This document shows, one piece after another, positions 12,365 to 13,756 of a stretch of DNA of 64,000 nucleotides. Source of the DNA: Planctomycetaceae bacterium (GTDB taxonomy: Bacteria; Planctomycetota; UBA1135; GCA-002686595); the NCBI GenBank assembly GCA_011525785.1, contig WYBT01000063.1, positions 1 to 64,000 of the forward strand, given 5' to 3'. Positions within the stretch are counted from its first letter, which is position 1; each line of letters begins with the position of its first letter. The notes beneath the pieces are model-generated. The model made no database searches, was not told where the DNA came from, and saw nothing but the letters and a program-made list of their open reading frames with translations. The translations under genes were made by a program, and so were the position numbers.

Positions 12365-13344
12365 GTCGCCCGCGCCTCGCTTGGGTGCTCAATCTCGACG
12401 CTGAGCACGAGCTCGAGCACGGCCGCACGTTCACGCCGTCGGACCACTTGCGGGCGCTGGTGGCGCGCGAGAGCCGGCGTTTGATCGGGTCGCTCGTCGC
12501 GGAGCACGACGTCGTGCTCGAGGAGCGCGATCGCACCAGCGGCGAGCGGCGCGCCGAAGGGCTGTTGGGCCTGTGCTGGTCGCCGACGCCCCGCGCGCTC
12601 GCATTGTTGCGCGCTGGCGGGGCGAAGCCGATCGAGAGCGCGGGCGTCGAAGCGCTTCGCGTCGTCAACGCGCGGCCGTTCGCAGCGGCGTTGCGAGCCG
12701 AGCACGCACCGCAGAGTTTCGAAAAGTTCGTCGTTGCGACGCTCGAGGACGCGCTCGCGCGGCTCTCGCGCCCGGCCGCGCTCGGCTGGCTGGTGCGACG
12801 CAGCTTCGGTGCGGCAGGCCGCGGCCGGCGTTGCATCGCGAGCGGCGCGCCAGATGCTGGTGAGCTCGCGTGGCTCGTCGCGAGCCTGCGCAGCGGGCCA
12901 CTGGTGATCGAGCCGTGGGTCGAGGTCACGCGTGAGTTCACGCGCTCGGGCTGGGTCACCGCCGGCGGCGAGGTCTCGCTGTCCGCGCCGTGCTTGCAGA
13001 GCGTCGCGGCGAACGGCGCCTGGACCGGAACGGAGCGCGACGAGGAGCACCTGACTCGCCGCAGCGAGGACGAGCAGCTCTCCGCGATGTTCGAGCGCGC
13101 GGGACGGGCTCTCGCGGCGAGCGGCTACTTCGGTCCGTTCGGGATCGATGCCTATCGCCATCGGACGGCGGACGGCCGCGAAGCGCTCAATCCGCTCAGC
13201 GAGATCAATGCGCGCTTCACGATGGACTGGACCACGGCGCTGGGGCCAGGTGCTCTCGAGCGCTGGTTGAGCAGTACGGCGCCAGAGCAAATTTTCCACG
13301 TTGGCTGCAGCGATGCTGCGAGCGCCGCGCGACGCCGCGGCTGA
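12361..13344 (+). CDS. ATP-grasp-like protein, partner of DUF455 gene
   Basis: A GTG at 12361 overlapping the DUF455 stop gives a 327-residue protein starting SRPRLAWVLNLDAEHELEHG; the frame is open further left, but inside the DUF455 gene. LVRRSFGAAGRGRRCI resembles the ATP-grasp nucleotide loop, LVIEPWVEVTREF the central strand, and SEINARFTMDWTTAL the metal-binding 'NxR' end of the fold. Such proteins usually ligate a carboxylate to an amine or thiol. The substrate is unknown. The last ~20 residues are encoded in and just after the left arm of a 32-bp inverted repeat, so the true C-terminus may have been altered. Confidence 0.6.
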   Translation: MSRPRLAWVLNLDAEHELEHGRTFTPSDHLRALVARESRRLIGSLVAEHDVVLEERDRTSGERRAEGLLGLCWSPTPRALALLRAGGAKPIESAGVEALRVVNARPFAAALRAEHAPQSFEKFVVATLEDALARLSRPAALGWLVRRSFGAAGRGRRCIASGAPDAGELAWLVASLRSGPLVIEPWVEVTREFTRSGWVTAGGEVSLSAPCLQSVAANGAWTGTERDEEHLTRRSEDEQLSAMFERAGRALAASGYFGPFGIDAYRHRTADGREALNPLSEINARFTMDWTTALGPGALERWLSSTAPEQIFHVGCSDAASAARRRG

Positions 13345-13375
13345 CGTGGAAAATTTGCTCTGGCGCCGTACTGCT
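13270..13375. repeat. Perfect 32-bp inverted repeat with 42-bp spacer
   Basis: The arm at 13270-13301 is the exact reverse complement of 13344-13375. The spacer itself contains a small hairpin (GCAGC-gat-GCTGC). The left arm lies in the 3' end of the ATP-grasp-like gene, the right arm starts at the last base of its stop codon, and the next gene starts 25 bp later. It could be a very strong terminator, a short mobile palindrome, or an assembly or amplification artefact. There is no run of T after the right arm. Confidence 0.85.
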
Positions 13376-13399: not shown

Positions 13400-13756
13400 G
13401 TGACCACTGCTCCCACTCCCGATCACGCCGTCGTCGCGCAAGGCGACATGGCGCACCTGCGCGAGATCCAACGCGTGCTCCGCGCGCGCGGCATCGAGTC
13501 GAACATGATGCAGCCGCCCGGCGGCTGCGGCAGCGGGTGAGGGACCAAGCTGTGGCTCGCGGTCGCGAGCCAGGATGGTGAGAGCGCCGCGCGCGTGGTG
13601 TTCGAGCACTGGGGTCAGGACGTCGATTTCGAGGCCCTGGTGCGCTCGCAGCAGGCGATCGACCTCAACGCCGAGTCGGCGAGCTGCCCGGCCTGCGGCG
13701 CGGCCTTCCCGACGAGCAAGACGCGCTGTCCGAGCTGCGGGCTGCGCTTCGGCTGA
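13400..13756 (+). CDS. Probable selenoprotein: small DUF2007-like protein with zinc ribbon and in-frame UGA (Sec47)
   Basis: One frame from GTG 13400 to TGA 13754-13756 gives 118 residues if the internal TGA at 13538-13540 (codon 47) is read through. Both halves look like one protein. The N-terminal half (HLREIQRVLRARGIESNMM) resembles the first helix-strand of DUF2007-type signal-transducer folds. PPGGCGSG-U-GTKLWLAV then places the UGA three residues after Cys43 (Cys-x3-Sec), and the C-terminus is a zinc ribbon (CPACG...CPSCG). A hairpin with a GGUC loop sits at the right distance after the UGA. The role is unknown; the Cys/Sec pair suggests redox or metal chemistry. The alternative is a nonsense-mutated pseudogene. 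Confidence 0.7.
13554..13571 (+). promoter_or_regulatory. Bacterial SECIS-like hairpin
   Basis: GGCTCGC-GGTC-GCGAGCC forms a perfect 7-bp stem with a GGUC loop. The loop begins 20 nt after the UGA at 13538-13540. E. coli fdhF has the same GGUC loop about 18 nt after its UGA, and bacterial SECIS elements lie roughly 16-37 nt downstream with a G at the start of the loop. The hairpin is inside the coding sequence (codons 52-58), as expected in bacteria. Confidence 0.65.

Follow-up and report, generated by a model that had tools for sequence, protein, structure and literature searches.

A dispersed family of palindromic repeats in planctomycete genomes, probably mobilized by a TIRYT-type transposase

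The closest described systems are the TIRtrons, with their TIRYT genes and TIR repeat families (Di Nocera et al. 2013, PMC3733652), and the REPINs with their RAYTs (Bertels and Rainey 2011, PMC3116915). In the portion of the former paper drawn on here, TIRtrons carry a RAYT-like Y1 gene flanked by long terminal inverted repeats (TIRs) rather than by GTAG REPs, and the TIR families are moderately abundant, with many members present as dimers; the REPs of the same source lie near the 3′ ends of open reading frames (ORFs), can encode C-terminal residues and include dimers within longer palindromes. REPINs, in the corresponding portion of PMC3116915, are inverted doublets of ~100 bp with conserved ends, which are predicted to form one hairpin and have a variable spacer with compensatory changes; their mobilization by a RAYT in trans has been proposed. 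The TnpAREP superfamily, as treated in part of Quentin et al. (2018, PMC6006769), combines an HuH motif with a single tyrosine and has known planctomycete members, and TIRYTs are discussed there.

Here we describe a palindrome that resembles these systems in the features just named and is probably a non-autonomous palindromic mobile repeat, a REPIN-like TIR dimer mobilized by a TIRYT-type transposase. Elements of this kind are already known as TIRtrons, TIRYTs and TIR dimers (PMC3733652) and as REPINs (PMC3116915), and nearly everything reported below has precedent in the cited portion of PMC3733652. The family itself was named in no title or abstract found by our literature search, and wording for nested palindromes gave no match. 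Three genomes are compared throughout: G000, the genome to which the locus belongs (6.8 Mb in 63 contigs, about 91% complete); G001, from the same genus; and G006, from the same family.

The palindrome and its host gene

The window (the whole 64-kb stretch of DNA analysed) had been predicted to contain a perfect inverted repeat at a gene end. Direct reading of the bases confirmed two exact 32-bp arms separated by a 42-bp spacer (13270–13301 and 13344–13375), with the left arm inside the ORF at 12385–13344 and the right arm starting at 13344, the last base of the TGA stop codon. When mismatches are allowed, the arms lengthen to 43 nt (13270–13312 and 13333–13375; 91% complementary) and the gap shrinks to 20 nt, which yields a 106-bp palindrome that covers the ORF's 3′ end. 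Only three inverted repeats (24 nt or more, within 400 bp) occur in the window, and this is the strongest; the other two are palindromes with overlapping arms at 76–80%. Folded as single-stranded DNA, the palindrome reaches −58.3 kcal/mol, versus −27.7 ± 2.6 kcal/mol for shuffled sequences (z = −11.7; 0 of 200 shuffles). Rfam returned weak matches only, to eukaryotic microRNA hairpins and isrG, that is, to generic long hairpins, and the microRNA matches were far under the gathering scores (best 54 bits versus 168). The features of the locus are as follows, with SF1 denoting a subfamily defined in the next section.

12385–13344, plus strand: host ORF; the final 24 codons and the stop codon TGA (13342–13344) are contained in the element
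13270–13375, no strand: probable palindromic mobile repeat, SF1 copy (inverted-repeat search, fold and 11-copy alignment A3)
13270–13312, plus strand: left arm, 43 nt, of which the first 32 nt are perfect
13274–13288, plus strand: left core end motif, GTACGGCGCCAGAGC (motif search)
13313–13332, no strand: apex region between the 43-nt arms (arms and 11-copy alignment)
13333–13375, plus strand: right arm, 43 nt, of which the last 32 nt are perfect
13357–13371, minus strand: right core end motif, GTACGGCGCCAGAGC (motif search)
13400–13756, plus strand: next gene, with a GTG start 24 bp past the element and an in-frame TGA at 13538–13540

The host ORF had been labelled ATP-grasp-like in the original prediction; Pfam assigned it no family, and the label was not confirmed. 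The accompanying suggestion that the element truncated the gene proved half right. In G001 the orthologue ends in ERWLAVAAPRPARHTQ and a stop codon, 12 residues past the sequence ERWL, whereas the window gene keeps ERWL and then runs through 24 residues encoded by the element, SSTAPEQIFHVGCSDAASAARRRG, before its stop. The 12 C-terminal residues of the G001 protein are therefore lost, but 24 element-encoded residues are gained instead.

The gene that follows the element is a separate observation. G001 shares its in-frame TGA (context GCGSG-U-GTKL), and most of the changes beyond this codon are synonymous. Because of this conservation, and because SelA was found in both G000 and G001, the gene probably encodes a selenoprotein.

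A dispersed family with paired arms

A search of G000 with a 161-bp query around the feature gave 25 alignments (E ≤ 0.001), spread over ten other contigs and further along the same contig. The end motif GTACGGYGCCAGAGC, allowing at most one mismatch, has 65 + 62 matches in G000, versus 0/1 for a reversed-pattern control. From stretches fetched from this genome, 47 full palindromes were extracted, which form two subfamilies: SF1, with a spacing of 81–83 and including the window copy, and SF2, with a spacing of 77–78. SF1 is the more diverse, and the arms of SF2 are nearly identical, which suggests that SF2 was probably amplified recently. Half copies stand beside full copies at several sites.

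As in REPINs, two inverted repeats make up one hairpin of ~100 nt that is present in many dispersed copies. The hairpin seems to be under constraint. In an alignment of 35 SF2 copies, pairing between the arms reaches 96.6%, and in 50 cells both partners are changed (as high in 0 of 500 shuffles). Forty-five of these 50 changes fall in the outer 8 positions, so the foot of the hairpin varies between copies and still pairs. The alignment of 11 SF1 copies shows weaker covariation (0.151 versus 0.119; 2 of 500 as high), and in both alignments the arm ends read GTAC. Single arms fold no better than shuffled sequences, at least as good a fold being reached by 189 of 200 shuffles for the window arm and by 177 of 200 for an SF2 arm. 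The arms are not imperfect palindromes of their own with a GTAG-type foot; since they neither fold alone nor carry a GTAG-type tag, they are not REPs.

Empty sites and lineage-specific expansion

The motif search covered 31 genomes, including G000 itself. The family is numerous in G000, G001 (85 + 82 matches) and G006 (40 + 41), whereas the other genomes have at most 17 matches with both strands summed, several of them with controls of similar size; the other 16 genomes of the same family have at most 10 matches each, again summed over both strands. Most G001 copies are of a third, shorter size (spacing 68), which indicates that the expansions are lineage-specific.

The window locus is syntenic in G001, with flanks that are 89% and 84% identical, and the palindrome is absent there. 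Close relatives that keep the repeat as a conserved coding sequence had been named as the observation that would count against the original prediction; the orthologous site in G001 is instead empty. Together with the many dispersed copies and the transposase-associated ends described below, this empty site supports the proposal that the feature is a small palindromic mobile element. Nine sites, including that in the window, were compared between G000 and G001: at six of them a single genome carries the element, and at three both genomes do. A tenth site is occupied in both, a few bases past the same stop codon, but the two elements differ in size.

Two further loci concern the sequence around copies. 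At L045:3082–3722, ~640 bp between two G000 palindromes are unmatched in G001 (contig C33), which suggests recombination or replacement between copies. The flanks of a G001 element at C64:23319 match the ends of two G000 contigs, C28 and C36; because both contigs end near elements, the family evidently breaks assemblies.

Position relative to genes

Gene contexts were obtained with a home-made gene caller based on codon log-odds. For 44 G000 copies a gene was called both to the left and to the right; 28 of these copies lie at most 30 bp from a stop codon or overlap it, in agreement with the location of REPs near the 3′ ends of ORFs described in the cited part of PMC3733652. The median distances in 27 tandem pairs are 16 bp to the stop codon and 35 bp to the next start, and the copy is nearer the stop than the next start in only 15 of these pairs. 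Beyond the 44 copies, two more fall within called genes and another is at the edge of a stretch.

A Y1 transposase between similar ends

Pfam Y1_Tnp (PF01797) has a single match in G000 (contig C11), a single match in G001 and four matches in G006. Against a Pfam cut-off of 23, the G000 protein scores 20.3 in a single-protein scan and 23.5 in the genome search. The best NCBIfam name for three proteins is REP-associated tyrosine transposase (NF047646, REP_Tyr_transpos), below the cut-off (49 bits versus 80 for the G000 protein). THFHL and RYIDxN, the HuH and tyrosine motifs as their meaning is given in the cited part of PMC6006769, are invariant in six of six aligned relatives (L156 was dropped because of a stop within the range, and L154, L158 and L159 were left out). 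A PDB sequence search with the transposase found no credible relative.

The G000 transposase gene lies between 39-bp inverted repeats, which are 90% alike and start with GTACAGAGCCAGGCTCC. A 66% relative in another planctomycete has the ends GTACGGAGCCAGGCTCC, and in the relative at L153 the Y1 gene is likewise placed between long TIRs. The nearest relatives in GTDB-based contigs are planctomycete metagenome-assembled genomes at six of eight loci. At the seven loci besides that of the 66% relative, unrelated inverted ends of 32 to 45 nt are seen at three and short ones of 19 nt at one; inverted ends were not found at the remaining three, two of which are cut by a contig end. In G006, a further Y1_Tnp ORF (357 aa, contig C16) is directly flanked by two ATACGGTGCCAGAGC ends at a distance of 1.2 kb from each other, and these are ends of the window type. 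A Y1 gene between long TIRs, as in TIRtrons, is thus present in G000, in the L153 relative and on G006 contig C16.

The second TIRtron property, the same TIR type occurring as dispersed dimers, is seen with the GTACRGAGCCAGGCTC ends. Palindromes with these ends are abundant in G006, where the motif has 149 + 146 matches (control 2/1), and G000 has one such palindrome (C54:251937–252033). The window family matches the GTACRGAGCCAGGCTC pattern only in part. Moreover, the ends of the transposase in G000, GTACAGAGCCAGGCTCC, are not identical to those of the window family, GTACGGCGCCAGAGCAA, and the pairing of this transposase with the palindromes therefore rests on similarity. Another transposase may be missing from the 63-contig, about 91% complete G000, in which the search covered Y1_Tnp.

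The transposase units of G000 and G001 are 96.3% identical in surroundings that do not match, whereas the flanks of the window site are 84–89% identical; this difference suggests movement or transfer of the unit itself. An ORF with a Y2_Tnp match (PF04986) adjoins the unit on G000 contig C11 (L122:2258–2839).

Inverted flanks and nested palindromes

Beyond the elements, the left flank matches the inverted right flank over longer runs than are seen in mismatched pairs. The mean run is 6.64 versus 3.93 in SF2 (36 copies), 5.65 versus 2.02 in G001 (20 copies) and 21.7 bp versus 2.9 in G006 (18 elements), with 0 of 5,000 permutations as high in each case. For the G006 count, composite and widely spaced structures were excluded by a distance filter, and loci were chosen with both ends listed. 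A second G006 family (17 elements) has a mean run of 29.8 versus 6.7. In G000 and G001 the symmetry stops near position 8, but many G006 copies extend it over tens of bp. SF1 (11 copies) has no excess of locus-specific symmetric flanks (2.27 versus 2.34; 3,026 of 5,000 permutations as high), so the growth discussed below is not based on the window copy.

Some of the long G006 runs are nests, with one palindrome centred in another (L101, L102, L103 and several of the second family), and palindromes of different families also lie centre in centre. Composite nested palindromes of more than 200 bp are found at L165, L168, L171, L172, L174 and L176, some of them looking as if they had been amplified as one whole unit. 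Other long runs consist of locus-specific host sequence, in some cases with scattered mismatches, which speak against an assembly artefact. The inverted flank at L163 takes in 17 bp of the called coding sequence of both convergent genes, whose proteins both end in RAQSL. As to the direction of copying at this locus, homologues of the left gene have tails that vary in length and sequence, which would fit an appended RAQSL without proving it.

We tentatively propose that the palindromes might grow by copying neighbouring host DNA, inverted, to the other side at or after insertion. Such copying could proceed by template switching on the hairpin or by synthesis from the hairpin end; it would enlarge the palindromes and alter convergent genes at their 3′ ends, and the apex would offer a landing place for the next palindrome, giving rise to concentric nests. 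The alternative that remains is that palindromes insert at the apex of hairpins already in place; the dimers inside palindromes in the cited part of Di Nocera et al. (PMC3733652) are precedents for this. A perfect stem of at least 10 bp is present in 2 of 51 ordinary G006 3′ regions and in 0 of 51 mid-gene controls. Pre-existing hairpins were accordingly rejected as a general target in G006, where a preference for rare hairpins may still operate. Flank copying is favoured over apex insertion because such 3′ hairpins are rare and because the symmetry is found inside coding sequence. Equal distances to the two stop codons were rejected as proof of copying, being found at only 3 of 10 convergent pairs (29/29, 21/21 and 21/21); they are not relied on because the constant foot of the second G006 family supplies stop codons.

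Discussion

The family departs from the described systems in several respects. Compared with TIRtrons as presented in the cited portion of PMC3733652, its end motif is GTACRGNGCCAGR rather than the GGGGWSAS shared by many of theirs; its dimers are tight and symmetric and their core arms hardly vary, its feet differ between copies but stay paired, and in G006 it nests concentrically. In contrast to REPINs in the cited portion of PMC3116915, the gene for the probable transposase is itself enclosed by ends of this kind. With arms that neither fold alone nor bear the tag, the window copy does not qualify as a GTAG-REP REPIN, although it would work in the same way.

As a mobile repeat, the unit would consist of two inverted transposon-like ends (GTACGGYGCCAGAGC and onwards) joined by a short apex, about 90–110 bp in total, and when single-stranded, for example on the lagging-strand template, it would form one long hairpin. 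By analogy with known Y1/HuH transposases, the RAYT/TIRYT-like Y1 enzyme encoded on G000 contig C11 would recognize these ends in trans and move the palindromes by a single-strand route, with insertion elsewhere, often just 3′ of genes, and without direct target duplication. The window copy would have landed in the 3′ end of the ORF at 12385–13344 and provided it with an element-encoded tail and stop codon.

The frequent position near stop codons (28 of 44 copies) and the paired arms with compensatory changes would also be consistent with a cis-acting RNA or DNA hairpin, a bidirectional terminator or mRNA stabilizer kept at gene ends for its function, and one G001 element (C12:10302) sits where G000 has an ordinary terminator-like hairpin. 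However, the window site is empty in G001, the size and sequence of copies are lineage-specific, and the arms are nearly identical over 35 copies, which a terminator does not need; we therefore regard this explanation as unlikely. The two roles need not conflict, since a hairpin that moves could also act as a terminator. The original prediction had further raised an RNA structure that might control the next gene.

Among DDE transposons, non-autonomous elements of palindromic form are common, and the transposase ends and SF1 ends match only in part, which would suit a miniature element of another (DDE) insertion-sequence family with a chance likeness to Y1 ends. That reading is quite improbable, given that no direct target duplication of fixed length was detected (offset 0–12, length 3–9): at best 2 of 36 SF2 and 1 of 11 SF1 copies had one, and the 7 of 20 copies scored in G001 by the same scan are palindromic GATC feet and hence ambiguous. 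In addition, ends of the same type directly flank a Y1_Tnp ORF in G006. The fold-back artefact raised in the original prediction is very unlikely, to the point of being hardly credible. Several G000, G001 and G006 contigs do end at copies, as palindromes break assemblies, yet the family is present at many dispersed places with distinct flanks in two separately assembled genomes of the same genus, has subfamily-specific sequence, and includes SF1 copies that differ by substitutions, some of them compensatory.

With the mobile-repeat reading, an odd hairpin becomes an insertion with an empty counterpart, and a probable transposase can be named for it. A planctomycete family is thereby added whose palindromes, transposase and ends can be compared over three genomes. 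The surprising part lies in G006, where flanks of inverted host DNA extend for tens of bp, sometimes into genes, and where palindromes nest. Palindrome extension and the editing of gene ends are otherwise followed mostly as single mutations. If the growth proposed here is true, these genomes would preserve a natural record of palindromes spreading into adjacent DNA and editing gene ends in bacteria.
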